Source: a candidate division KSB1 bacterium (lineage in GTDB: Bacteria > Zhuqueibacterota > JdFR-76 > DREG01). Taken from it: 54,610 bases of DNA. Made by a program: the position numbers and the translations under genes. Shown here piece by piece: positions 3,192 through 54,610 of the stretch (position 1 is its first letter; each line of letters opens with the position of its first letter). The notes under the pieces were generated by a model. The model was not told the DNA's origin, did not search any database, and worked only from the letters and a program-made list of their open reading frames with translations. The stretch covers positions 1-54,610 of the forward strand of contig JADFJB010000013.1 in the NCBI GenBank assembly GCA_022566355.1, given 5' to 3'.

Positions 3192-3959
3192 ATGAATAAC
3201 GTTATTGGCATTGTTGGAGGAGTTGGACCTTACGCCGGAATTGATCTGGCCACAAAAATATTCGATCAGACAATTGCGGAAACAGACCAGGAGCATTTGC
3301 CAGTCGCACTGCTATCCTTTTCCGGAAAAATTGCCGAAAGATCCTCTTTTGTTTTGGGGGAATCAGATATCAACCCGGGATATGGAATTTCCGACGTAAT
3401 ATCGGAGTTAGAAAAAATTGGCTCCAGCGTTGTCGGAATCCCTTGCAATACAGCTCATGCTCCAAAAATTTTTAATGTTATCCTGGATGGGCTTAAGCGA
3501 AAGAATAGTAAAGTGCAAATCGTCCATATGATTGATGAAGTTGCCAGGTTTATACAAGAAGAGTATCCTGAAATTAATCAGGTCGGAGTTCTGTCAACTT
3601 TGGGAACCCGTGAATCCGGGATTTATGATGATTGTCTGGCACAAAATGGATTGAATATTGTGCCACCGGATGAAATGACATTGGAAAAAATTCATGACGC
3701 TATTTACAGCATCAAAGCCAAATCAAATCCTGTGGATGAATCCACTCGACAAAAACTTTCTGAATCAATTGATTTTTTAAGCGCAAAAGGGGCGGAAGCT
3801 GTAATTTTAGGGTGTACGGAATTGCCTTTGGCTTATGATTGTACCGACAAACATTTAGTGATTATTGATCCTGCTATGGTACTGGCCAGAGCCTTGATCC
3901 GGGAGTTTGATCCTGCCAAATTAAAAATGTTGAAAGTAAATCAATTAATAACCCAATAA
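3192..3959 (+). CDS. Aspartate/glutamate racemase family protein
   Basis: A 255-residue member of the cofactor-independent Asp/Glu racemase family. These enzymes invert an amino acid alpha carbon using two cysteines as acid and base. Both are visible: C85 in GIPCNTAH and C208 in ILGCTELPL, each in its conserved setting. The protein opens with the family glycine loop IGIVGGVGPYAG. The PCNTAH motif and the length fit aspartate racemase or related broad-range enzymes better than MurI glutamate racemase, but substrate cannot be settled. Its stop is 15 bases before the ATG of the peptidase gene, so the two are probably co-transcribed. Confidence 0.88.
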   Translation: MNNVIGIVGGVGPYAGIDLATKIFDQTIAETDQEHLPVALLSFSGKIAERSSFVLGESDINPGYGISDVISELEKIGSSVVGIPCNTAHAPKIFNVILDGLKRKNSKVQIVHMIDEVARFIQEEYPEINQVGVLSTLGTRESGIYDDCLAQNGLNIVPPDEMTLEKIHDAIYSIKAKSNPVDESTRQKLSESIDFLSAKGAEAVILGCTELPLAYDCTDKHLVIIDPAMVLARALIREFDPAKLKMLKVNQLITQ

Positions 3960-3974
3960 GTGGAGGTAACAAAA

Positions 3975-6443
3975 ATGAGTTATTTAAATTATAGACTGGG
4001 CCAATCAAAAATAAAATACGTGGTTTGTATTGTATCCGTTTTATGCATCTCAGTTGGATTGTTGTCAGGACAAGAATACCGAATGCCACCCAAAGCTATA
4101 GCAGATTTGGTGGATGCTCCACCGACCCCCGGAGTCAGTATTTCACCAAATGGCGACTGGATGCTTTTGATGGAGCGGTATAATTTACCATCTATTGCTG
4201 AATTGGCTCAGCCTGAATTACGGATTGCCGGTTTGCGTATCAATCCTCGAAATAATGGTCCCAGTCGATCAAGACCAACAGTAAAATTAACTTTCAAAAA
4301 TATAAATTCTCTGGATGAAATTGAGGTTAATGGGCTGCCGGATGAGGCACGTATCAATAGTATTCGCTGGTCACCGGACAGCAAACACATTGCCTTTACA
4401 ATATCGAAAGAAAAAAATATTGAATTATGGGTAGCCGAAACTGCTTCCGGCAAAGCAAGGCGGTTGATTAAGCATTCATTGAACGCTGCTTATGGAGCCC
4501 CGCTTTATTGGTTATCGGATAGTAAAACAATTGTTTGTAAAGTAGTAGATAAAAACAGGGGCGCTCCAATCCCGGTTCCTACTGTTCCCGGAGGACCTAT
4601 TACGCATGAGAATATTGGTAAAACGGCGCCAGCCAGGACTTACCAGGATCTATTAAAAAACCAGTATGATAAGGAATTGTTTGAATACTATTTGTCAGCA
4701 AAAATTGTATTGGTTTCGTTGCAAGGCAAAGTTAATGAACTACCGCCTAAGGGATTAATTAGCCGGGTGCAACCATCACCGGATGGCAAATATTTATTGG
4801 TAGAAAAAATACATCGACCCTTTTCTTACCTTGTACCTGTCTATCGATTCCCCAGGCGGGTTGAAATCCTGGACCTGGATGGCAAGTTGATTCACCAGGT
4901 TGTCGATCTTCCCCTTGCCGAGGAAGTACCTATTGGCAGGGGATCGGTCACTACAGGACCGCGCTCAATTAATTGGCGAGCGGATGCTTCGGCAATGCTT
5001 TATTGGGTGGAAGCCCAGGATGGTGGAAATGCAAAGGCAAAAGCGGATATCCGGGATAAGGTGTTTACATTGAATGCGCCCTTTAAAGATAAACCCGAAC
5101 ATCTCATTTCGTTACAGTTCAGGTATAGAGGAATTTATTGGGGGTCAGATGATATCGCCCTGGCTTCCGAAAGATGGCCGCGGAGCAGATTAGCGCGGAC
5201 ATGGCTGGTAAAACCCGGCTTCCGAAATGATGAGCCCGATTTGATATTTGATTATTCTTATGAGGATCGTTATAGCAACCCGGGAAATCCGTTAACCACA
5301 ACAAGCAAATGGGGAACGTCGGTTCTTCAAACAACTAAAGATAATAAATCTATTTTTCTGAGTGGAACAGGTGCTTCTCCTGAAGGGGACCGTCCCTTCC
5401 TGGATAGAATGAATTTAAAATCGAAGGGAAAACAACGGTTGTGGCGTTCAAAAGCTCCATATTATGAGAGGGTTGAGAAGATATTAGATGTGAATAATCT
5501 TATGCTACTCACTCGCCGGGAATCCAAAACCAATCCACCAAACTACTTTCTCCGTAATTTAAAAAATGATAAAATTCAACAAATTACCGAATTTCCCCAT
5601 CCAGCCCCTCAATTGATTGATATTCAAAAAGAATTGATTACCTACGAACGCAAAGATGGAGTGCAATTATCAGGTACATTGTATTTGCCTGCAGGATATA
5701 AATTAAGTGATGGTCCTTTACCCATGCTGATGTGGGCCTATCCTCGGGAATTTAAAAGCGCTGCTGCAGCGAGCCAGGTTACCGGTTCACCATACCAGTT
5801 TGTGCGCATATCCAGTAGTTCGCCGTTGTTGTTTCTTACCCAGGGATTTGCTGTTCTCGACGGGCCGGGTATGCCGATTGTAGGAGAGGGAGATAAAGAG
5901 CCAAATGATACATTTGTTGAACAATTGGTAAGCAGTGCGGAAGCTGCAATTGAAGAAGTTGTGCGCCGGGGAGTCGGTGATAGAGATCGGATGGCTATCA
6001 GCGGCCACTCATATGGTGCATTTATGACTGCGAATTTATTGGCTCATTCTGATCTGTTTAGAGCAGGCATAGCCAGAAGCGGTGCATACAATCGAACGTT
6101 TACGCCTTTTGGTTTCCAAAATGAAGAGAGGACATTCTGGCAAGCACCTGACGTATATTTTAAAATGTCACCTTTTATGCATGCGGACAAAGTCAATGAA
6201 CCGATTCTGTTGATTCACGGCGTTGCGGATAATAATTCAGGGACATTTCCGATTCAAAGTATACGCTACTATAATGCACTTAAAGGCCATGGAGCCACAG
6301 CCAGGTTGGTAATGCTTCCCCATGAGAGTCACGGATATCGGGCCAGGGAATCAGTCATGCATACTCTATGGGAAATGTCTCAATGGCTGGACAAATATGT
6401 AAAGAATGCGGCTCCACGTAAAACGACTCTCGGAAGCAGGTAG
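3975..6443 (+). CDS. S9 family serine peptidase (prolyl oligopeptidase type, S9D/glutamyl endopeptidase-like), exported
   Basis: An 822-residue protein starting at the ATG at 3975, set by a GGAGG site 8 bases upstream; an in-frame GTG at 3960 overlaps that site and is rejected. It has a signal peptide (about 1-35), a beta-propeller region with WSPDSKHIAF-type repeats, and a C-terminal alpha/beta hydrolase domain. The catalytic triad is visible: S679 in GHSYGAF, D752 in GVADNNS and H786 in LPHESHGY. The opening MPPKAIADLVDAPPTPGVSISP block is typical of the S9D group, which cleaves peptides after acidic residues. It likely degrades peptides in the periplasm or outside the cell. It follows the racemase gene closely. 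Confidence 0.92.
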   Translation: MSYLNYRLGQSKIKYVVCIVSVLCISVGLLSGQEYRMPPKAIADLVDAPPTPGVSISPNGDWMLLMERYNLPSIAELAQPELRIAGLRINPRNNGPSRSRPTVKLTFKNINSLDEIEVNGLPDEARINSIRWSPDSKHIAFTISKEKNIELWVAETASGKARRLIKHSLNAAYGAPLYWLSDSKTIVCKVVDKNRGAPIPVPTVPGGPITHENIGKTAPARTYQDLLKNQYDKELFEYYLSAKIVLVSLQGKVNELPPKGLISRVQPSPDGKYLLVEKIHRPFSYLVPVYRFPRRVEILDLDGKLIHQVVDLPLAEEVPIGRGSVTTGPRSINWRADASAMLYWVEAQDGGNAKAKADIRDKVFTLNAPFKDKPEHLISLQFRYRGIYWGSDDIALASERWPRSRLARTWLVKPGFRNDEPDLIFDYSYEDRYSNPGNPLTTTSKWGTSVLQTTKDNKSIFLSGTGASPEGDRPFLDRMNLKSKGKQRLWRSKAPYYERVEKILDVNNLMLLTRRESKTNPPNYFLRNLKNDKIQQITEFPHPAPQLIDIQKELITYERKDGVQLSGTLYLPAGYKLSDGPLPMLMWAYPREFKSAAAASQVTGSPYQFVRISSSSPLLFLTQGFAVLDGPGMPIVGEGDKEPNDTFVEQLVSSAEAAIEEVVRRGVGDRDRMAISGHSYGAFMTANLLAHSDLFRAGIARSGAYNRTFTPFGFQNEERTFWQAPDVYFKMSPFMHADKVNEPILLIHGVADNNSGTFPIQSIRYYNALKGHGATARLVMLPHESHGYRARESVMHTLWEMSQWLDKYVKNAAPRKTTLGSR

Positions 6444-22916: not shown

Positions 22917-22924
22917 TTCTTAAT

Positions 22925-23098
22925 ATCAATTATCATGATCTATTCATAAACCTTATTACTTTCGTCCCGGAGGGATCTATTTTGCAACTAATTTATACTT
23001 ACAATTTTACTATTTACTTTTTATGGAAATAGATTCTTCCTTACATAAGGAAATTTTAAGCTTAAAAGCTGATTCATGAATTATCCAGGTTTATTAAT
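22925..23098 (-). repeat. MITE-like palindromic repeat, inverted copy
   Basis: The right end reads TTCATGAATTATCCAGGTTTATTAA and the left end CTATTCATAAACC, matching in reverse the ends of the copies at 50792, 52789 and 54371. Between them are the shared TTTTAAGCTTAAAA block and a TCCCGGAGGGATC core. It fills nearly the whole gap between the second pump gene and the HU gene, where no coding frame was seen. Confidence 0.6.
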
Positions 23099-38123: not shown

Positions 38124-38626
38124 TTAATTTTCCCCATTCAACTTCGCTTTTGCATCACGTCTTGTAAATATTGCTACAATTGCAGTTGTCAATAGTCCCA
38201 TAATTGGTGACCACACAAGTCCTTGGACGATGTAATTTTTCATGTTAAAATAATTTTCAGCCGCTTCTTGGGTCATTTTGCCTTCACTTACTGAATATTT
38301 AATTACGTCGCAAAATAGTCAGGGGAAATTATTGTCGAAGAAATATACTGAATCAATGGGCTGAGAACAGTAACAATTAACGTAATAATGAGTCCTGCTA
38401 CGAAACCTTGTTTATATGTCATTTTACCTTGATAGTGATTTTTTCGTTTATCTACCAAAGCAAAAACATAAATTGCAATTGCCGGTAAAGCGCCGAGGTT
38501 AGTGTAGATTGGGTGTTTGTCTATGTGTTCACTATGCAGGCCTGTTAGTCTTTCTAATAACGTCCATAATATTAACATAAAGGCAAATATGATTGCCCAT
38601 TTGATTTCAATTTTATATTTACTCAT
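38124..38626 (-). pseudogene. DUF4199-family membrane protein with one frameshift
   Basis: From the ATG at 38626 (AAAGGAT ribosome site 8 bases before) the frame gives WAIIFAFMLILWTLLERLTGLH and two more membrane segments, and stops after SPDYFAT near 38303. The next frame continues without a gap as DVIKYSVSEGKMTQEAAENYF, then a last membrane segment (SPIMGLLTTAIVAIF) and stops at 38124. Adding one base near 38311 (GC to GCN before GAC GTA) restores a protein of about 167 residues of the DUF4199 type. A single lesion could be a recent mutation or an assembly error in a run-free context. Confidence 0.72.
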
Positions 38627-38644
38627 AATCTATCCTTTTATTTT

Positions 38645-38940
38645 AGTTAGAAAATATTTCCGGTCCTACGATTATTGAATGTTACAAATTCACAAGTCCA
38701 AAATCAATGATCCTCTTGATTTTGTTTGATATTTGGATGGATAGATAATTTTTCAAATTGTTGATATAGTTTCAAATGTAATCGGATAATAATTGCTAAA
38801 AAAAAGTGTAAGTAAAATCGTGTGCACTGAATGTCCCAATTTGTTCCTCCCCTAAATAAAGAAGCTCAATGATCACGAGCCTTGGGTGTTATTTTATTGA
38901 ATTTAAGCTTGTAACGGTGCGTGATTCGAACCTATCAGTG
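38645..38940 (-). repeat. Dispersed repeat, copy A, with a tRNA 3' end remnant
   Basis: Long copy of an element also found at 43871 and 46470. Shared blocks with copy C include GATATAGTTTCAAATGT, AAAGTGTAAGTAAAATCGTG, AATGTCCCAAT and TTTTATTGAATTTAAGCTTGTA. On the - strand its far end reads TAGGTTCGAATCACGCACCG then TTACAAGCTTAA, a T-arm and acceptor strand of a tRNA. The near end stops about 19 bases from the DUF4199 ATG. Confidence 0.8.
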
Positions 38941-38971
38941 CCCGACTTTTATTGTTTGTAATTTCATAGTT

Positions 38972-39081
38972 GAGTTCATTCTAAAAAGGTGGGATACCGA
39001 TTCCATCGCTCTCATAAGTATTTGTTTTTATGTAACAACTTTTTTTAGAAAAGCGATTGAATCGGTTTTTAGAGTAAACTC
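38972..39081. repeat. Long imperfect inverted repeat
   Basis: ACCGATTCCATCGCT at 38996-39010 pairs with AGCGATTGAATCGGT at 39052-39066 (14 of 15). Outer parts GAGTTCATTCTAAAAA (38972-38987) and TTTTTAGAGTAAACTC (39066-39081) pair in 13 of 16. A CATAGTTGA-type segment flanks both sides. It occupies most of the gap between repeat copy A and the end of the PD40 pseudogene, with no coding frame. Confidence 0.55.
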
Positions 39082-39112
39082 ATAGTTGAATTCAGGCTAA
39101 GATATAGAAAAT

Positions 39113-40055
39113 CTATTCCAGATTAGTAAATTCCGGCGACCAGGCCGGGTCTTCGTCGGTACTGCCACGCGCATCTAGACGATGTGACCCGCTGCCATCA
39201 ATATTCATCACGAATATTCTATGGTTAACCATATAGACAATCCGCTGTCCGTCAGGTGAAATCGACGGATAGGTTTCCGCATCAGCGCCCGTTGTAATTC
39301 TGTTCAAATTAGTTCCGTCCGGGTTTATGGTGAAAAGGTCTACATATTCCTGGGAGCTCCCGGGTATTGGCTGTAATGCGCCAAAAATAATCTTAGATCC
39401 TTCCTGGGACCAGGCAGAGCAAAAAAGTTCAGGACTGAAAAAAATAGATCTTTGATCAGAGCCATCCTGATTCATGATATAAAGACTGCCGTTAAATCGC
39501 TGTGTTGAATTTCGTTCGGATTGAAAACTAATCCGGCTGCCATCGGGTGACCAATCGGGAGTGTTATCAGCAACAGGATCCGTTGTTAATCGCGTCTTAT
39601 TGGAACCATCCGTATTTATGACGTAAATATTCCAATTGCCTATTTATGACTTGCTCAAAGGCGATTTTTGTGCCGTCCGGCGACCACCTGGGATGACGGG
39701 CTTCCCTGGTGTTGGGGATAAGGAACTTGCCTGTACCATCGGCATTGATAATGTAAAGCTCGGAATAACCTTGCGGTGTGCCTATAAAATAATCAGCATC
39801 AAAAACGATTTGCGAACCATCGGGAGACCAATCCGGCTATGCTTTTCGGCCGCTGTCATTTGTTATTTGGACAATATTGGTTCCGTCCGGAAACATGGTA
39901 AAAACTTGTGGATTACCATTGACTATTGAAGTAAAAGCAATCAGCGAATATGGCTCTTCACCATTTGCACCTGGTTGTGTCGGTGTGTTCTTCTCGCAAC
40001 TCCAAATCGCCAGGAGTAATACCCCTAAAATAATGATCTTCGAAAATTTATACAT
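39113..40055 (-). pseudogene. TolB/PD40-type propeller lipoprotein, broken by a stop and a frameshift
   Basis: A good start (AAAGGAG 6 bases before the ATG at 40055) opens a lipoprotein signal ending in LLLAIWSC. WD40-like PD40 repeats follow (VFTMFPDGTNIVQITNDS, PDWSPDGSQIVFD, RWSPDGTKIAFEQ, SPDGSRISFQS, SPDGQRIVYMV). Lesion 1 is a TAG near 39840 in RKA-stop-PDWSPDG. Lesion 2 is a one-base shift near 39637, where IAFEQV goes on in another frame as GNWNIYVINTDGSN. After that the frame is open to the stop at 39113. Intact, it would be about 314 residues, one six- or seven-bladed propeller, similar to TolB-like surface lipoproteins. Two lesions argue for real decay. Confidence 0.8.
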
Positions 40056-40382
40056 AGACGCTCCTTTTATGATCGGTGAATTATACACGGATTTAATAAT
40101 TTTGTTTCAGGAGTAAAACCAGAAGAGCATCTTCCGTTATCTCGGTTACTGGTTACAACCTTACAGACTCAATAAGCGTGGTTGCAATGCTGCCGGATGA
40201 TATATTTTAACTCAAAAAAGAAGAGCGTCGCCTTTCTTTACTAAACCTCTCGTCCTGGGAGTTTAGTTAGTGTCTGACCGAAAACTCACCATTTGTAGAC
40301 ACCCTTATCATGTTTTCCCTTACAATGACCCATAAGGAGACAAAACTGCAACAAAATATCAACACATTCTATCGACCAGACC
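40056..40382. other. 327-base gap with a hairpin, no gene seen
   Basis: Upstream of the PD40 pseudogene and downstream of the methyltransferase gene. ACTAAAC at 40240-40246 and GTTTAGT at 40261-40267 form a 7-base perfect stem (loop CTCTCGTCCTGGGA) suited to a terminator for the methyltransferase or a mobile-element end. No convincing coding frame was seen. Confidence 0.4.
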
Positions 40383-41129
40383 CTAAGCATGATTGGTGGC
40401 GCAGTAGATTTTGGTCGCCCACAACCAACGACTACCCTTCTTTTTTATTTCTAGGTGACCCTTGGCCATTAGGTCCTCGATCAAATTCAGGTGGGGCAAT
40501 AAATCACTTCCGAGTGGATACCATTGTTCGGTGACCAGTTCGACTTTTGCGAAATGATTTTGAGCGGTGTCTACTATTTTGGATTCGTTCGACAGTGTTA
40601 GAACCGGAAAGAATATCTGCCCCTTTGGCGTGAGAAACTCTGGTGCCTGTGATAGAATGCTCACGATCCATCGAGTGCCATCCTCTCCGGCATCGCTGTG
40701 GATGTGGGGCGGATACCAACGTGAGCGCCGGGCAATCGGTTCGGACATGCCCGCAACATCGTCCACTATCAGATCAAATTTCATTCCTGCCCATGGCTCA
40801 AACATGCTGCCACATCGACAATCGATGATGAGCTGAGCATTTTCCGCATTGTATTTTGTCAATTTCACAGCTTCTGCGCTGATATCTGAAGCATACACCG
40901 TGGCTTTCGGCAAAATCGATTTTGTCAAAACTACGGCGCCGATTCCACAGCCACAGCCCAGATCCAGCGCCGATGCCGCGTTTGGGTTGACCAATTTACG
41001 TACGCCGGACAGCAGTACGGTAGTCGTACTTGTTGGCAGAAAAACCTCTGGCCTGGTTGCTACGACAATGTCCTGGCTATCGTCGAAGCTTTTGTCTTTG
41101 TATTCAAATGTCCCCAGTGAGGTGTCCAA
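40383..41129 (-). CDS. Class I SAM-dependent methyltransferase
   Basis: 248 residues. The SAM-binding motif I is LDLGCGCGIGAV (about 57-68), followed by ATVYASDISAEAVKL (motif II, acidic residue for the ribose) and FDLIVDDVAGMSEP (motif IV position). The last differs from the NPPY of PrmC and RlmG-type enzymes, although the general layout (N-terminal RPEVFLPTSTTTVLL, then a Rossmann domain) resembles that group. The target is therefore unknown; a small molecule or protein is as likely as RNA. It reads GC-richer than its neighbours, a possible sign of transfer. No ribosome site is evident. Confidence 0.75.
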   Translation of the reverse strand: MDTSLGTFEYKDKSFDDSQDIVVATRPEVFLPTSTTTVLLSGVRKLVNPNAASALDLGCGCGIGAVVLTKSILPKATVYASDISAEAVKLTKYNAENAQLIIDCRCGSMFEPWAGMKFDLIVDDVAGMSEPIARRSRWYPPHIHSDAGEDGTRWIVSILSQAPEFLTPKGQIFFPVLTLSNESKIVDTAQNHFAKVELVTEQWYPLGSDLLPHLNLIEDLMAKGHLEIKKKGSRWLWATKIYCATNHA

Positions 41130-41450
41130 TTGCTTGCCTCTGGATTAATTTTGATAACATCATGGCACAAGGCATCATATAGAAACTTTGCAGTGTCCCA
41201 AAGTTTCCTAGAGCTGGCTTATTCGGGATAGGGCGGAATCTTATGGCTCCGCATTTTCTTCACTACTGGGACCACAGTGTTCGGCTGGTTAAGGGCAGAT
41301 GAATCTTATGGCATAATATCATTCACTAATCAATATCAACATACGCATGAAACAAAGAACCATGAACTTCGAGTTTTTCATAGATGTTTTAACACTAAAT
41401 TCAACACATCATAACCAACACGCCAAAATGTTATTCTGAACCCATTATTT
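41130..41450. other. 321-base gap with a perfect hairpin
   Basis: GAAACTTTG at 41182-41190 and CAAAGTTTC at 41199-41207 pair perfectly over 9 bases with an 8-base loop; this could end transcription or mark a repeat. The rest (41208-41450) has mixed composition, GC-rich near 41220-41300, and no convincing coding frame or ribosome site. Confidence 0.4.
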
Positions 41451-42854
41451 CTATCCCGTTACCAACACATACACTATCGCCAGGGCAATATGTACCGCCG
41501 CGAATGGCAGCGCTTGTTTGATAAAACCAAGGAATGTCATGTGTAGTTTATATTTATGCATAATAGTCACAGCCACTAAGGTCGAGGCGCTACCAATGGG
41601 TGTTAAATTACCGCCCAAATTAGCGCCAAAAATGACGGACCACCAAAGTGTTGAATCTCCCGGTGTACCGTTACTTTGTAAGATTTTGGCAAGCATGGCT
41701 GCCAATGGAATATTGTCTGTTACCGAACTGATTGCTGCCGATACAACCAGCAACATGCCTGTCCCAAACTGGCTCTCTTCTGTGCCGATAATGAATGTAA
41801 TGCCTTTCCCGATTAGATTGAGTACTTGTGCGTGCTCCATCACTGCAATCACGACAAAGAGTGCCATAAAGAAAATAATCAGATCCCAATCGATGGCTTT
41901 ATAAAATTGATCCACTTCGGATTTATAACGAACCATCATTACCGCGGCAAAAGCCAAAGCGACAAAACCCATCCCTAAATCCGACACCGTTGGCAAAATG
42001 GAGGTGGTGGCAATTACGCCGATAAACGCAAACAACATAATGGTTGCAAAATAGAAAAAACGCTTAGACTCGATGCCATCGTTTTCATCAAAACTTCCCA
42101 CTAAGGTTTTAGCTTCGGTTCGCTCGTCCTCTGATCCCAACTTTTGTATGCCAAATAATTTAGCCCCCATGAATAGGGTAATGACGGTTGTAATCACCAC
42201 ATAAGGTGCTGCCTTAATAAAAAAAGCGACAAATGAAATACCCGCGGTATTACCGACGATGATATTAGGCACCGAGGAAATTAAGGTGAGCAAACCCCCA
42301 ATATTCGTGAGTAAACCCTCGATCAATAAAAAGCCAAGAAGCTTGTCCATTCTGTTTAGTTTTTTTAACGATACACCGGTCAGGGAGCCGACAATGATCA
42401 TCGCCGTTACGTTGTTCAACACAGCAGAAAAAAGCACTGTCATAATGCCGTAATACCAAAGTAAATTGACCGGCTCCCCATTTGACGCTTTAGTGAGTTT
42501 GACTGCAATCCAGGTAAAAAGACCTGACTTTGAAGTCACATCGACGAATAAACTGGAGCCGACTATAATGGCGATGACACCCCAGTCCACTGCGGGGATA
42601 TACACGGGCATTTCTATTTGATGACCGCCCGGGATAATCACGTGGCCGAAAGGCAAAATATGCATGAAACCACCCGCAAGAAGGGCGATAACGGCAAAGA
42701 CACCAACAATGAGAGATTTTTTAGCGTGAATTTTTTCTTCTAATGCCAGGCTAAGGATCATTAAAACCAACAACCCGGTAAAGAGTAAGGTGGTGGCATT
42801 GGAAACCGGGTGAGTGGCTTGTTCGGCAACGGCTGTCAGGGTTTCTGGTATCAT
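41451..42854 (-). CDS. ArsB/NhaD-type ion transporter (SLC13/IT superfamily)
   Basis: 467 residues with about 11-12 membrane segments. The two inverted half motifs of the ion transporter superfamily are clear: SAVLNNVTAMIIV with NIGGLLTLISSVPNIIVG in the first half, and SVTDNIPLAAML with GANLGGNLTPIGSASTLVAV in the second. This pattern fits NhaD sodium/proton antiporters and ArsB-like permeases. The ion cannot be settled; no arsenic genes adjoin it, so sodium/proton exchange is the better guess. An AAGGAA ribosome site precedes the ATG, 13 bases after the stop of the universal stress gene, so the two form an operon. Confidence 0.88.
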   Translation of the reverse strand: MIPETLTAVAEQATHPVSNATTLLFTGLLVLMILSLALEEKIHAKKSLIVGVFAVIALLAGGFMHILPFGHVIIPGGHQIEMPVYIPAVDWGVIAIIVGSSLFVDVTSKSGLFTWIAVKLTKASNGEPVNLLWYYGIMTVLFSAVLNNVTAMIIVGSLTGVSLKKLNRMDKLLGFLLIEGLLTNIGGLLTLISSVPNIIVGNTAGISFVAFFIKAAPYVVITTVITLFMGAKLFGIQKLGSEDERTEAKTLVGSFDENDGIESKRFFYFATIMLFAFIGVIATTSILPTVSDLGMGFVALAFAAVMMVRYKSEVDQFYKAIDWDLIIFFMALFVVIAVMEHAQVLNLIGKGITFIIGTEESQFGTGMLLVVSAAISSVTDNIPLAAMLAKILQSNGTPGDSTLWWSVIFGANLGGNLTPIGSASTLVAVTIMHKYKLHMTFLGFIKQALPFAAVHIALAIVYVLVTG

Positions 42855-42867
42855 TATTGTTGTTTCC

Positions 42868-43728
42868 TTATAACATCAAAAGAGGAATTTGCCGAACTTC
42901 AACGGCTAACGGATAAGCCAGGCCATGCATCGCCATTTGGTCGCCGTCTTTGGTATTGATAACCAACAAGTCGACCTTTTTTTCATTAATGTGTTTTAAG
43001 TAGTCTTTCAATTGGTGGCCGAATTCCACAATGGACTTTACTTCAATCGAACGGTTTAATTTAGCCAATTCAGTATTTACCGACTGGATATATTCGGTCG
43101 GCCCTTTCAGCAATTGCCGGCCAAGTTTTTGTTTAGCATCTTCAGTATCAATCGTTGGTATTTTACTAATGGCTTCAATCACGCGATCAAAATAAACCTG
43201 GTTTTCGATATGGGATAAATAAAAACTGCCCGATTCATCGACAAAAGCTATGCCGTATTGCACCAGATGATGGTCATTGACCATGTGATCGGTTACTACC
43301 ATCACCGAACTACATTTATCTAGCGCACTATCGCGAGCATAATCCGCTTTGGGGTGAGGAATAACAAGCACCGGTACTTTTGTCTTTTGTAACATAACGT
43401 CCAGGTGCTCACCAAGACTAAAAGGGTGGAGCCAGGTTTCACTATGTAAATTGCGATAAGTAATGATCAGATCCGTCGTGGAGCGGTTTACTAATTCTAG
43501 CAGGTCTTCTGCGGATTTAAAGTCATTCCGGTTAGCGGTGTTCCAATCTATATTTTGAGATTGGCCTAGATTATGACAAAAATCTTTCACCTGGTTCAAC
43601 AAAAAATTAGCAGCCTCAGCATCTAAATCAGTCATCAAAAACACAGATTTAATCTTTATATCCTGATGCAGATAGGTTTCTTTAATCGCTGAACGAAAGG
43701 CACTTTCAAACTCGTCGACTTTCAACAT
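42868..43728 (-). CDS. Universal stress protein family protein, two-domain
   Basis: 286 residues that look like two tandem UspA-type alpha/beta domains (about 1-140 and 150-286). The first shows the strand IKSVFLMTDLDAEA and VPVLVIPHPK. The second has SSVMVVTDHMV and KVDLLVINTKDG. The usual ATP-binding G-x2-G-x9-G loop of ATP-type members is not clear in either domain, so it may not bind ATP. It is co-transcribed with an antiporter, and pairing of a stress domain with an ion transporter suggests it senses or tunes that transport (inference). Repeat copy B lies about 140 bases upstream. Confidence 0.78.
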   Translation of the reverse strand: MLKVDEFESAFRSAIKETYLHQDIKIKSVFLMTDLDAEAANFLLNQVKDFCHNLGQSQNIDWNTANRNDFKSAEDLLELVNRSTTDLIITYRNLHSETWLHPFSLGEHLDVMLQKTKVPVLVIPHPKADYARDSALDKCSSVMVVTDHMVNDHHLVQYGIAFVDESGSFYLSHIENQVYFDRVIEAISKIPTIDTEDAKQKLGRQLLKGPTEYIQSVNTELAKLNRSIEVKSIVEFGHQLKDYLKHINEKKVDLLVINTKDGDQMAMHGLAYPLAVEVRQIPLLML

Positions 43729-43870
43729 GATGGTGTATCTTTTCTTTGTTGTGGGTTAAGCCTACCTCAAAATATAGGTCAAAATTAATGGGAAACGGTT
43801 TGGCCGATCAATTTTATGTGGTTCCTTTCAATCTTGCCAACCGCCTTCTAGCATCGATTAAATCGAAGTC

Positions 43871-44007
43871 AGGAGATATTTTCGGTTCTACGATATTGTA
43901 TGGTACTAGTTGAGAAATCCAAAATCAATGGTTTTTTGACTTTATTTGGATATTTGGATGGATAGATAATTTTTTAGATTGGGAATTTATTTTCAAATGG
44001 AAGGCCA
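43871..44007 (-). repeat. Dispersed repeat, copy B (short)
   Basis: Matches the gene-proximal half of copies A and C: GATATTTTCGGTTCTACGAT, TACTAGTTGAGAAATCCAAAATCAA, GATATTTGGATGGATAGATAATTTTT and TTTTCAAATG. After 44007 the match ends; the tRNA-derived part and the GTGTAAGTAAAATCG block are missing. It is upstream of the universal stress gene and downstream of the Ser/Thr kinase gene. The rest of 43729-44126 shows no gene. Confidence 0.8.
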
Positions 44008-44126
44008 CAAGAAACCACCAGCGAAAATCGGTTACGTTAAAGTTTCGTTAAATTAATGGCCGCAAGATCAACTGACCACCCCCCTTCAACATCTTCAACA
44101 GGACCAATTGAAGTCCAGCCTGGCGT

Positions 44127-46442
44127 CTAATCATCAGGGAAATTCATATGGCTGACGAGAGCTTCAAATCGCGGATCATCACGAATACTGTCATACCAAG
44201 GATTGGTTTTTATATTAGATATCCTCTTGTTTTTTTCGAGCCATTCAAAGGCCATATCCTTATCCCCTAATCCGATATAAATCTGTGCAATATACTTAGG
44301 AGGGATGTAGGTCTTTTTCTCTTTCTCTAAGAGGTAGTCCAATATTTGTTTAGCCCTGTCTGGATAACCTGCAACAGCATAAGTGTAGGCCAGAGCCCAG
44401 TTTGTACCGGGGCTTTTGACTTTCCTAGAAAGAAATTCTGCAATCGCTTCCTGATACATGCCTTTTTGCTCATAAGCCCTTGCCAACCACCATTTGGGAT
44501 TGATTGCTTCGGGTTCAAGCTCCAGTACATTGCGATATGCATCAATCGCCTCATCATATCGGCCCGCATAAAAAAACACGTTACCTAAATTCGTATTTAT
44601 ACTAAGGGAGAGCGGATCGAGGCGCTGTGCAATCACCATCTCTCTTATGGCTTCTTCATGGCGTCCTAAGTTGGACAATAAATCACTGTATGATGCATGG
44701 TAGCCTGCAGAACTTGAATTTAGTCTGATCGCTTTTCTGAGATATTCTTCTCTCTCAAGCCAATCAAAACTCTCCTGAAATCTGATATCGGACAGTGTAG
44801 CATATGCATCGCCAAGGGTGCTATCAATTTCCAGTGCCTTTTGCAGGAATGACTTAGCCTTAGGGAGGACTGACTCTCTTGACGCGTAGCCCGTGTTTGC
44901 ATATCTTAAATAGGCATTGGAAAGACCCACATACGCCAACGCGAAATCAGGGTCAATTTCAATCGCTTTTTGTAGATGCTCAAAACCCTTTTCAGTCGTC
45001 TCTCTTGTCGTAGATTTTTCCATCTGATATTGGGCTCTTAGATAAAGTTGGTTGGCTTCCGGATTGACCAGGCGGACTTGCTTCAGACGCTTCTGTTCTT
45101 CGGGCGTTACGGTAATCTTGATCTCCCTGGCGATCTCTGACGCAACTTCGCTCGAAAGAATTAAAAAGTTAGTCAGTTGGCGGTCAAAATTGTTGGCCCA
45201 TAGATGCCGCTCCGGAGATAGCCCAATTAGCTGTACTGAAATTCGAACTTGATCATCGAACTGGATCACAGAGCCTTCTAATATTGACTTTACATTCAGC
45301 TCTTTTGCGATTGTCGACAATGGTTTTCTTACATCTTTATATTGCATGACAGATCTTCTGGAAATGACCCGCAATGCACTTATTTTTGAAAGCTCCGTTA
45401 TGATCGCATCGGTCATCCCATCCACAAAATACTCCTGCTCCGAATCCATTGAGAGGTTTTCTAAGGGTAAAACAGCAATGGAATCAATTGGCTCGGCTGA
45501 TTTGTGTCGGAATATACTAAACAGAATAATAGTTAGCAAACCCACGGCAGCCACGCCAATAGAAATTCGTGTCATTTTTTTGGTTCGAGAACTTACCCTA
45601 ACGGATTTCGGTGTAACTTTGGCAGTTGCATACTCTTCATTGATTTTCTTCAGATCAACAATTAGATCAACCATATTTTGGTAACGACCCGATGCATCTT
45701 TTTCTAAGCACTTACTGACAATCCGCTCAAGTTCCATCGGGATGCCGGTGCGAAGAGCTGTGACCGGCTCAGGATCTTCGTTCATAACCGAATAAGTTAT
45801 CGCCGGATCGTAGTCGCCCTTAAAAGGCAGCTGGCCAGTCAGCATCTCATACAATAGGACACCTAATGAGAAAATATCACTGCGATGGTCCACTTCGTCG
45901 CCCCGAGCCTGCTCTGGCGACATATAGGCAACTGTGCCTAGTGTGGTACCTTCTTTGGTGAGCTTAGTCTTGCCGCTGATCTTAGCCAACCCAAAGTCCA
46001 TGATCTTGACAGAGCCTTTAAGTGTGAGCATGATGTTGGCTGATTTAATGTCACGGTGAACCACGCCCTCTTCGTGGGCAGCCTGTAACCCTTGTGCGAT
46101 TTGGATGGCAAGATTGAGGGTATCATAAATTGGAATGGGGCCAGCTTCGATCTTATCCTTCAGTTCCTGACCCTTGATGTATTCCATAACGATGAACATC
46201 TCATCATCGACTTCTTCTATGTTGTAGATAGTAGCTATATTGGCATGATTAAGAGCGGCAGCCGCCTGTGCCTCAATCTTGAAACGCTTACCTTCTTCTT
46301 CATTTGCAGCGATTTGACGCGGCAGAAACTTAATGGCCACTTCACGCTTGAGGTTAGTATCTTCCGCTTTATACACGACGCCCATGCCACCTTCGCCAAG
46401 TTTATCAAGGATTTTGTAGTGAGATATGGTTTGGCCGATCAT
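44127..46442 (-). CDS. Membrane Ser/Thr protein kinase with TolB-like and TPR domains
   Basis: 771 residues. An N-terminal kinase domain (about 9-265) has LGEGGMGVVYKAED, K38 in VAIKFL, E57, VHRDIKSAN with D131, D149 in MDFGLAK and YMSPEQARG. A membrane helix (about 292-311) follows. Outside are a TolB/FlgO-type domain (about 318-425; SIAVLPLENLS, YFVDGMTDAI, VISRRSVMQYKD, YILEGSV-like) and TPR repeats (about 450-760). This is the domain order of bacterial PknB-like kinases that sense a signal outside and phosphorylate cytoplasmic proteins. The target is unknown. The ribosome site is weak. Repeat copy C ends 27 bases before the ATG. Confidence 0.92.
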   Translation of the reverse strand: MIGQTISHYKILDKLGEGGMGVVYKAEDTNLKREVAIKFLPRQIAANEEEGKRFKIEAQAAAALNHANIATIYNIEEVDDEMFIVMEYIKGQELKDKIEAGPIPIYDTLNLAIQIAQGLQAAHEEGVVHRDIKSANIMLTLKGSVKIMDFGLAKISGKTKLTKEGTTLGTVAYMSPEQARGDEVDHRSDIFSLGVLLYEMLTGQLPFKGDYDPAITYSVMNEDPEPVTALRTGIPMELERIVSKCLEKDASGRYQNMVDLIVDLKKINEEYATAKVTPKSVRVSSRTKKMTRISIGVAAVGLLTIILFSIFRHKSAEPIDSIAVLPLENLSMDSEQEYFVDGMTDAIITELSKISALRVISRRSVMQYKDVRKPLSTIAKELNVKSILEGSVIQFDDQVRISVQLIGLSPERHLWANNFDRQLTNFLILSSEVASEIAREIKITVTPEEQKRLKQVRLVNPEANQLYLRAQYQMEKSTTRETTEKGFEHLQKAIEIDPDFALAYVGLSNAYLRYANTGYASRESVLPKAKSFLQKALEIDSTLGDAYATLSDIRFQESFDWLEREEYLRKAIRLNSSSAGYHASYSDLLSNLGRHEEAIREMVIAQRLDPLSLSINTNLGNVFFYAGRYDEAIDAYRNVLELEPEAINPKWWLARAYEQKGMYQEAIAEFLSRKVKSPGTNWALAYTYAVAGYPDRAKQILDYLLEKEKKTYIPPKYIAQIYIGLGDKDMAFEWLEKNKRISNIKTNPWYDSIRDDPRFEALVSHMNFPDD

Positions 46443-46469
46443 TCTTTGATTCTCATAAGATAGTTTTGA

Positions 46470-46767
46470 TTTTAGTCAGCAGATATTTCTTCTACAATGA
46501 TACTGCATATTACTAGTTGAGAAATACAAAATCAACGATTTTTTTGGCTTTAGTTGGATATTTGCATGGCTGGTTAATTTCTTAGATTGTGGATATAGTT
46601 TCAAATGTGGTTGGATAATATTTTATAAAAAGTGTAAGTAAAATCGTGTGTACTAAATGTCCCAATATGTCTACATTTAGCCCTCCCCTTAATAAAAAAG
46701 GTTCGCCTTTGTGTATTGTTTTTATTGAATTTAAGCTTGTAGCGGATGTAGGATTCGAACCTAGTCC
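46470..46767 (-). repeat. Dispersed repeat, copy C (long)
   Basis: The second full-length copy, equivalent to 38645-38940 with many substitutions. It carries TACTAGTTGAGAAATACAAA (shared with copy B), GATATAGTTTCAAATGTGG, AAAGTGTAAGTAAAATCGTG and the ATTGAATTTAAGCTTGTA end shared with copy A. The end nearest the gene is 27 bases from the Ser/Thr kinase ATG; the far end runs into tRNA-derived sequence. Confidence 0.85.
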
Positions 46768-46797
46768 GCCAGTTGGCCGATATGAGCCCAACGAGCT
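46741..46797 (-). pseudogene. Decayed tRNA sequence (CAU-like anticodon)
   Basis: On the - strand the bases read TAGCTCGTTGG (D-arm start), GGCTCATATC (an anticodon arm with CAT), GGCGGACTAGGTTCGAATCC (T-arm) and TACATCCGCT (3' acceptor strand). The 5' acceptor strand that should match CATCCGCT (AGCGGATG) is absent: CTTAATTC is there instead. The D-loop is also shortened. It cannot fold into a full cloverleaf, so it is a remnant. The same T-arm to acceptor part lies at the end of repeat copy A. Confidence 0.7.
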
Positions 46798-47369
46798 AGA
46801 ATTAAGATCATTAAAACTTTAAAAGACAAACTATGTTGGCTATTTCTGGAAAATTCTTTAAATAAATTTTAGGACGCTAATATATCTTATCCCCCTTCAT
46901 ATTTCGGGTGTATGGGGTCTCAGAATCGGAATTATTAGGTTCTCGTCTTTTTAAGTTAAAATTTACCCAAAATATTTAAAAGCGGAAAATTCAAACATAA
47001 ATGATAATTCCAAATAAGCGACTGAGTTCATCCAAACGTTGCACATCGACCCCCAAAAACTGGGATCGAGTGCGAACGCCTATTCGTTACACCTTATAGT
47101 TTTATTATCCGTATTTGATATATTTCCTCTCGTTTTTTTTGCTTTGAGTTTTTCTAAGAAGTTGCTATGTAAGAAGTTGCTATGTCATATGCGTAAAGCC
47201 AGCATTGGAGATGATGCATTCAAAAAAAAGTAACCTACTTCTTTATTTATAATTATCACTTTCTATTGAATTTATATCCGACTATATTTATACTTACTTA
47301 CTTTAAAGTGAATGTAAAACACAATTTGTTTGATATACGGAAATCTAAATAGAGATTGGAATTTAATCA
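46798..47369. other. Intergenic stretch with a structured hairpin and a 15-base tandem repeat
   Basis: No convincing gene. Bases 47037-47078 fold into a bulged stem: CGTT, GCAC, TCGA and CCC pair with GGG, TCGA, GTGC and AACG. The unit AAGAAGTTGCTATGT occurs twice in a row (47156-47170, 47171-47185), and its 12-base core AAGTTGCTATGT recurs at 38101-38112. Promoter of ispG must lie in the last 200 bases; a clear -35/-10 pair was not picked out. Confidence 0.55.
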
Positions 47370-50791: not shown

Positions 50792-50973
50792 AATTAACCT
50801 GAATAATTCATGAATCATGCATTTTAAACTTAAAACTTCAAATCATGTCATCCCGCCGCGCGACGGGATCTATTTCCATCAATATGAAAAAGCTGAATAT
50901 TAAGAATGAAATATAGTAAAAAATTATTTTCTTGAATAACAGTGATAAGATTTATGAGTTATTCAGGTTAATT
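50792..50973 (+). repeat. MITE-like palindromic repeat, best-preserved copy
   Basis: Terminal inverted repeats of 23 bases (50792-50814 and 50951-50973) match in 21 positions. Inside lie TTTTAAACTTAAAA, a GTCATCCCG...CGGGATC core and no gene. Just beyond, 50999-51088 is a GTG frame of 29 codons (MKIDEQEKQMMKQLEEF start) with plausible codons but no ribosome site; it is not called as a gene. Nothing else is seen in the 50689-51173 gap. Confidence 0.7.
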
Positions 50974-51173
50974 ACATTTAACTTGCATTAGACTAGTAGT
51001 GAAGATTGACGAACAAGAAAAACAAATGATGAAACAATTGGAAGAATTTATTTCAAGTATCGATATAAATGTCGATGGCTCCAAATAATTAGTTTTCTGA
51101 AAAATCAATTTTGAAGGGGGTTTAGCAGCCTCTAATTTTATTTAAATAAATTCATAAATTTAACTGGGGTAGT

Positions 51174-52715: not shown

Positions 52716-52788
52716 CTAGGAATAAAAATCCGTGATCTCTAAAATATGCAGAGGTTCCTATAGGTAATGGAATTTCCTGTCGATTGTT

Positions 52789-52899
52789 AATTAACCTGGA
52801 TAATTCATGAATTGCAGTTTTAAGTTCAAAATTTCCTAATTGTCATCCCGTTGCGGACGGGATGACAGTGATAAGGTTTATGAATAGATCTGGTTAATA
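52789..52899 (+). repeat. MITE-like palindromic repeat, short copy
   Basis: Starts AATTAACCTGGATAATTCAT and ends TTTATGAATAGATCTGGTTAAT, the inverted ends of the family. The centre has GTTTTAAGTTCAAAATTTCC and a TCATCCCGTTGCGGACGGGATGA stem. It stops 8 bases before the ATG of the FapA-family gene, so any promoter of that gene lies inside or upstream of it. Confidence 0.7.
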
Positions 52900-54370: not shown

Positions 54371-54605
54371 GCTTAACCTGCATTATTCATGAATTATGAT
54401 TTTAAGCTTAAAATTTCCAACAATGTTATTTCGTCGTGCAGGCTGTTGTAGAGTGTCATTCCCTATTGCTTTCAGGCTATTCAAGAGACACAAAAAATGT
54501 CATCTTCGAATGTTTTCAGGTTATCCGAGAACCCCAAAACTGTCACCCCCGAGCGCTTTAATCGGGGGTCTATTTGCATTAGTTAAGCACAAAATGAACT
54601 TTTGA
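54371..54605 (+). repeat. MITE-like palindromic repeat, degenerate copy at the window end
   Basis: The left end TTAACCTGCATTATTCATGAA and the TTTTAAGCTTAAAATTTCC block match the other copies. Afterwards the sequence departs into GTCATTCCC and GTCACCCCC segments. A perfect 8-base stem (ACCCCCGA, 54545-54552; TCGGGGGT, 54562-54569) lies near the end. The right end was not found before the window stops. The 70 bases before it hold no gene. Confidence 0.5.
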
Positions 54606-54610
54606 TTAAA

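Follow-up and report, generated by a model that had tools for sequence, protein, structure and literature searches.

Why does one non-coding sequence recur ahead of unrelated genes in a bacterial genome? The question is raised by a stretch of 54,610 nucleotides (contig JADFJB010000013.1, hereafter the window) from a candidate division KSB1 bacterium, in which an initial annotation had remarked on three copies of a repeat that it did not recognise. Two possibilities had been put forward there: an expression cassette that travels with genes, or the trace of repeated insertion at one chromosomal site. In this report, we compare the three copies with one another, with the rest of their genome and with related genomes. 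Our preferred explanation, which we consider probable, is that a lineage-specific family of Ser/Thr kinases has the repeat as its 5' control region, and that this region was duplicated, the kinases were lost and the promoters came to serve new genes.

Three copies of one repeat in the window

The three copies, designated R1, R2 and R3 (Table 1), are real: the scores of their mutual local alignments (143 for R1-R3, 81 for R2-R3 and 79 for R1-R2) are far above chance, shuffled sequences reaching maxima of 23 to 30, and pairwise identities are 234/284, 111/130 and 110/135, respectively. Other observations of the initial annotation held up equally well, namely the single orientation of the copies, all on the minus strand, and the identity of the downstream genes, for which Pfam returned DUF4199 behind R1, Usp followed by CitMHS behind R2, and Pkinase with TPR behind R3. 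Its distances from repeat to start codon (19, 140 and 27 bases) agree with ours within a few bases. The DUF4199 domain is incomplete (Pfam profile positions 1-98 of 165). Two features went unmentioned there: R1 and R3 each end on the right in a remnant of tRNA-fMet, and behind R2 lies the remnant of a kinase start, 30 nt of which match the intact start at 46417-46446 with 80% identity. The fullest copy, read on the minus strand, consists of the 3' part of tRNA-fMet, the remains of a terminator, a spacer, a sigma-70-type promoter, a leader and the start of a Ser/Thr kinase; the spacer between terminator and promoter is about 100 nt long.

Table 1. Positions in the window of the repeat copies, their parts and the genes behind them
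Feature	Position	Strand	Basis
R1, nearly full copy	38636..38940	-	
R1, T-arm and acceptor 3' end of tRNA-fMet remnant	38912..38939	-	
R1, weakened intrinsic terminator, 7-pair stem, CTTTATT tail	38862..38882	-	
R1, promoter TTGATT - 17 nt - TAACAT	38679..38707	-	
DUF4199 ORF, 107 aa, first gene behind R1	38303..38626	-	Pfam 6.8e-20
R2, promoter half of repeat only	43867..44013	-	
R2, promoter TTGATT - 17 nt - TACCAT	43900..43928	-	
R2, kinase-start remnant, TTG ATC GGC CAA ACC GTT TCC CAT TAA	43786..43815	-	
Universal stress protein-like gene, now first gene behind R2	42868..43728	-	Pfam Usp 4.6e-5, weak
CitMHS-type transporter, second gene behind R2	41451..42854	-	Pfam CitMHS 3e-41
R3, longest window copy: tRNA-fMet remnant, terminator remnant, spacer, promoter, leader	46460..46800	-	
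R3, tRNA-fMet 3' part, D-loop to acceptor 3' strand	46740..46799	-	alignment to intact tRNA-Met C35:18828-18900
R3, promoter TTGATT - 17 nt - TAATAT	46507..46535	-	
Ser/Thr protein kinase with TPR repeats, 771 aa, intact, behind R3	44127..46442	-	Pfam Pkinase 3e-55

Other dispersed sequences are also present in the window. An inverted repeat of about 140 bp, with arms around ACCGATTCCATCGCT, adjoins R1 (38944-39100) and recurs at C163, again adjoining a repeat copy, and further repeats common to other contigs occupy 22922-23098, 50792-50994, 52786-52863 and 54373-54610. Within the transporter gene (42085-42134), a match to the Rfam family flpD, below the gathering score (25.6 versus 40 bits), is probably due to chance.

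Size and distribution of the repeat family

A self-search of the 4.62 Mb genome, which the initial annotation had proposed, returned 25 places with R3 as blast query. With a profile of the promoter half, 26 copies were detected at E <= 2.1e-6, and three further places (C48, C196a and C163) have the left half only. The copies are spread over more than 20 contigs and their ends are variable; contigs are short, and copies C10, C52, C163 and C178 lie at contig ends. The genome is also rich in other repeats. In 30 related genomes, all of other genera, R3 finds matches solely via its tRNA part (query positions 3-82) and the promoter-half profile gives nothing better than E 1e-3; the spread of the repeat therefore appears to be private to this lineage at the available sampling. 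A counterpart of the C179 gene is present in a relative at 50% identity, on a contig where the profile has no match, and shows only that the gene exists there. Plasmid and phage collections contained no match to the repeat, and Rfam gave none above the gathering score within it. An exact-pattern scan of genome contigs, from which the genome itself was possibly excluded, gave one Lachnospiraceae record only, probably by chance. The tree built from 23 copies places R1 with C47 (88/75) and does not group R1, R2 and R3. This pairing disfavours a local tandem duplication as the origin of the three window copies, their forming a single group being not formally rejected (AU p 0.08).

Constraint on the promoter core and direction of the next gene

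The conserved core is a sigma-70-type promoter, TTGATT, 17 bases and TANNAT, followed in R3 by a leader of about 65 nt. Across 20 copies, the TTG and TA...T positions show 0 changes out of 120, compared to 77 of 459 at the remaining positions between -35 and -10 and 341 of 1807 in the flanks. The difference from the rest of the -35 to -10 interval is highly significant (Fisher 5e-9, or 3.7e-8 without the two intact-kinase copies) in a test that takes the copies as independent, which is only partly true given their common ancestry and their detection by similarity. Spacing between the two boxes is 17 in 19 of the 20, and the six canonical positions remain invariant with three more copies added (23 aligned). 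No intact kinase lies directly behind 21 of these 23. Since R3 and C47 alone stand directly ahead of one (C35 has one further on, past truncated starts), the constraint falls for the most part on copies whose direct service to a kinase has ended. At the level of sequence, we take selection on the promoter to be demonstrated; transcription from the copies is what we infer from it. Judging by upstream motifs, the same promoter type is used by the tRNA genes of this genome, 17 of 35 having TTG-16/18-TA...T upstream versus 12% in shuffles (P 1.5e-7). A generic promoter scan with a threshold of 9/12 matches did not list the repeat promoters.

All 20 copies with a complete promoter and a readable flank have a next gene that shares their direction, versus one of four copies lacking a complete promoter (Fisher 0.002), in a tally made by hand from ORF lists that leaves out three promoter-bearing copies at contig ends and in which the first ORF at C59, C80 and C23 is itself a kinase scrap. 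The genes behind copies include DUF4199, Usp/CitMHS, NrfD-type, PAS-histidine kinase, FA hydroxylase, HU-like, DPPIV and BNR genes, and the promoters in front of such unrelated genes probably switch them on. A dyad, AAAATCA-T-TGATTTT, overlaps the -35 box and is well kept in many copies. We suggest, tentatively, that it could be an operator and the copies a regulon made by promoter duplication; in that case, the signal governing the kinase family would also reach some 20 unrelated genes.

Decay of the tRNA and terminator parts

At C35:18828-18900, an intact tRNA-Met(CAT) has the repeat directly behind it. Behind the tRNA stands a terminator whose stem has 10 pairs and whose tail is T6 (z -5.0), and the promoter and a kinase start come next. 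With its intact tRNA-fMet and strong terminator ahead of the repeat, C35 is likely to be the surviving ancestral arrangement. Across the copies both parts are decaying: the tRNA part is missing from most, and the terminator, strong at C35 and nearly as good at C43, is fair but less strong at C48; at R3, C47, C163, C196a and R1 it is either weak or gone. In the R3 remnant, a GC palindrome has replaced the anticodon-3'/variable part; ARAGORN found no tRNA in the window and did not recognise this remnant as one. The remnants of R3, C48 and C43 have one derived replacement in common, which at C48 reads CTCATA-TCCGCCAGCTGGCGGA-TAGG where the intact gene has CTCATAACCCAAAGGTCGTAGG. That at least three remnants carry the same derived change indicates that they were copied from one another, not regenerated at an intact tRNA, and that they descend from an already damaged copy. 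No kinase homology occurs near tRNA-Met in the six relatives examined, so that the order of tRNA and kinase is probably new in this lineage.

Short GC palindromes (TCCGCCAGCTGGCGGA and TCCCGCCCAGGCGGGA) lie inside tRNA remnants (46755-46775 in the window) and are also found in frame (PPRRD) in kinase 5' ends (L034 6664, L047 10939, L049 2178 and L121 4421). In both settings they replace native bases and resemble REP or Rickettsia palindromic elements.

Kinases and kinase-start scraps behind the copies

The kinase behind R3 has 24 matches in its own genome, many of them truncated. When compared with relatives, kinase matches number 19 in this genome versus 0 to 8; in eight relatives, among the matches listed, there are no truncated kinase starts under 65 codons. 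Not every kinase gene is preceded by the repeat. The kinase start, ATGATYGG..., follows the leader in R3, C47 and C35, and kinases begin about 20 to 24 nt past the profile end in these three as well as in C59, C164 and C115. Shorter or displaced scraps are found at C3, C178, C196b, C168a, C23, C80 and R2, and at R1 no kinase remnant is left. In total, at least 12 copies without an intact kinase still carry a kinase-start scrap, and outside R3 and C47 the kinases behind copies are cut after 5 to about 126 codons. Truncated units were copied again, as C123 and C115 have common sequence 3' of the truncated kinase start and C164b and C178 a common left flank.

Several further arrangements were seen. 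Two HU-like genes, on L041 (C85, 6199-6555) and L049 (C168), have the same repeat upstream, which suggests that a promoter was duplicated again together with its new gene. Tandem truncated kinase starts occur at L117 (C121) 4406-4692, L118 (C15) 3831-4042, L119 (C24) 5635-5513 and L034 (C35) 9549-9455. In each, a kinase start is broken off at the Gly-loop codons after 19 codons; a GC palindrome comes next and, some 30 nt on, another complete start. By eye, the TGA of the mini-ORF overlaps the next ATG in C121, C15 and C24, making translational coupling possible. Within or near the kinase starts on L043 (C80), L047 (C115), L039 (C10) and L114 (C23), a MITE-like insert is present, about 120 bp long with CCTGTGAGATAA/TTATCTCACAGG as its ends; in C10, C80 and C115 it lies at the same codons.

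Origin of the copies

The explanation that we prefer, reuse of duplicated kinase control regions, would proceed as follows. A kinase gene would have come to lie behind tRNA-fMet, giving the order tRNA-fMet, intrinsic terminator, spacer, promoter, leader and kinase that is still intact on C35. Segments of variable length, comprising the upstream region and the kinase, would then have been copied some 26 times, presumably by ordinary duplication and illegitimate recombination. Most of the copied kinases would have been cut short, leaving a promoter and a kinase-start scrap ahead of whatever gene is next. The upstream tRNA and terminator remains decay, and the promoter is held by selection because, we propose, it transcribes the next gene. 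In the window, R3 still stands ahead of its kinase, the proposed ancestral partner of the repeat; R2 would drive the stress-protein/transporter pair after loss of its kinase, and R1, where a former kinase is assumed, would drive DUF4199. The suggestion of a travelling expression cassette thus survives in part: the promoter core appears to have been duplicated with kinase genes, not with the unrelated genes that are now behind it, and it precedes so many of these chiefly as a result of kinase truncation. The other suggestion, of repeated insertion at one chromosomal site, finds no support in the presence of copies on more than 20 contigs, in their variable ends, in the derived tRNA change common to at least three of them or in the lack of an adjoining integrase.

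Could the promoter core (about 130 bp) instead be a small mobile element inserting ahead of genes, with the kinases merely one host? The diversity of downstream genes would fit, as would several left ends at profile positions 168-172 and the case of C10, where the core lies inside a kinase 5' end (L039 144-287) and replaces Gly-loop codons. C10 could be one hint of a core moving independently, but can also be read as a tandem duplication of a kinase start with a deletion. Moreover, left and right ends vary widely, neither terminal inverted repeats nor target duplications are seen at the copies, and at least 12 copies without an intact kinase retain a kinase-start scrap, all of which makes this reading unlikely.

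We regard as highly improbable that islands were inserted repeatedly at tRNA-fMet by a tyrosine recombinase, the repeats being remnants of attachment sites. R1, R3, C48 and C43 do carry exactly a tRNA 3' end, where integrases of this type usually insert, and R1, R2 and R3 share one orientation within 8 kb; however, homology extends 250 bp beyond the tRNA into the promoter, the replacement within the tRNA is the same in R3, C48 and C43, and no copy has any of the seven integrase matches within 4 kb, nor does any of these occur on C13 or C35. The absence of the tRNA part from most copies refutes insertion of this kind as a general explanation. An equally slight probability attaches to neutral debris, in which the copies would be now functionless leftovers from upstream of decayed kinases. 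The decay of tRNA parts, terminators and most kinase starts, in a genome where other repeats abound, agrees with it, whereas the unchanged canonical promoter positions, in surroundings changed at 17-19%, and the 20 of 20 readable promoter-bearing copies that point into a same-strand gene do not.

Comparison with known systems

REP/REPIN sequences consist of a palindromic unit of 20-40 nt, in many copies and either orientation. Like these and MITEs, the repeat family is dispersed and non-coding within one genome, and true palindromes and MITE-like repeats lie beside its copies; unlike them, it has no palindromic unit or terminal inverted repeats and stands in one orientation ahead of genes. We rejected REP/REPIN on its non-palindromic unit of 130-340 nt, matched in orientation to the next gene in 20/20, and a MITE or transposon on the variable boundaries without inverted ends. 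Integron cassettes have attC hairpin sites, with an IntI-type integrase beside the array; the integrase search left C13, and 4 kb on either side of every copy, without a match. In tRNA-targeted integrative elements, a direct repeat of the tRNA 3' end flanks an element with an integrase; this class was rejected on the common derived change in the tRNA remnants and the lack of a nearby integrase. With no sharp ends, inverted repeats or nearby integrases, the repeat is not a REP or transposon and is probably no integron site, in line with the opinion of the initial annotation.

Putative mobile promoters, or promoter propagation, were reportedly treated by Matus-Garcia et al. (NAR, 2012; gks787) and van Passel et al. 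(Genetics, 2014). Such sequences contain a promoter, are homologous to one another although the genes that they precede within a genome are not, and, as the name implies, move independently of the gene downstream. The repeat family is similar in that homologous, putatively promoter-bearing stretches precede non-homologous genes of one genome. It differs in having variable ends and a recognisable parent, the kinase family behind tRNA-fMet, and in its kinase scraps, by which gene duplication and loss, not promoter-only movement, would explain most copies. Only C10 hints at independent movement, most copies keeping kinase scraps; the conserved TTG-17-TANNAT, under constraint, is a predicted promoter. 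The putative mobile promoters of Matus-Garcia et al. are cited in PMC8049555. In promoter capture by deletion or tandem duplication, a gene is joined to a neighbouring promoter without long homology (PMC11111574). Here too, genes would have been joined to an existing neighbouring promoter via deletion or duplication, but as about 20 natural outcomes of one duplicated promoter instead of a single selected event.

Promoter reuse of this kind is already known; the record of intermediates is unusually complete here. A likely parent locus, truncated-kinase intermediates and orphan promoters, all in one genome, would make up an unusually readable natural record of promoter reuse, and how bacterial genes acquire new promoters becomes testable with one RNA-seq experiment.
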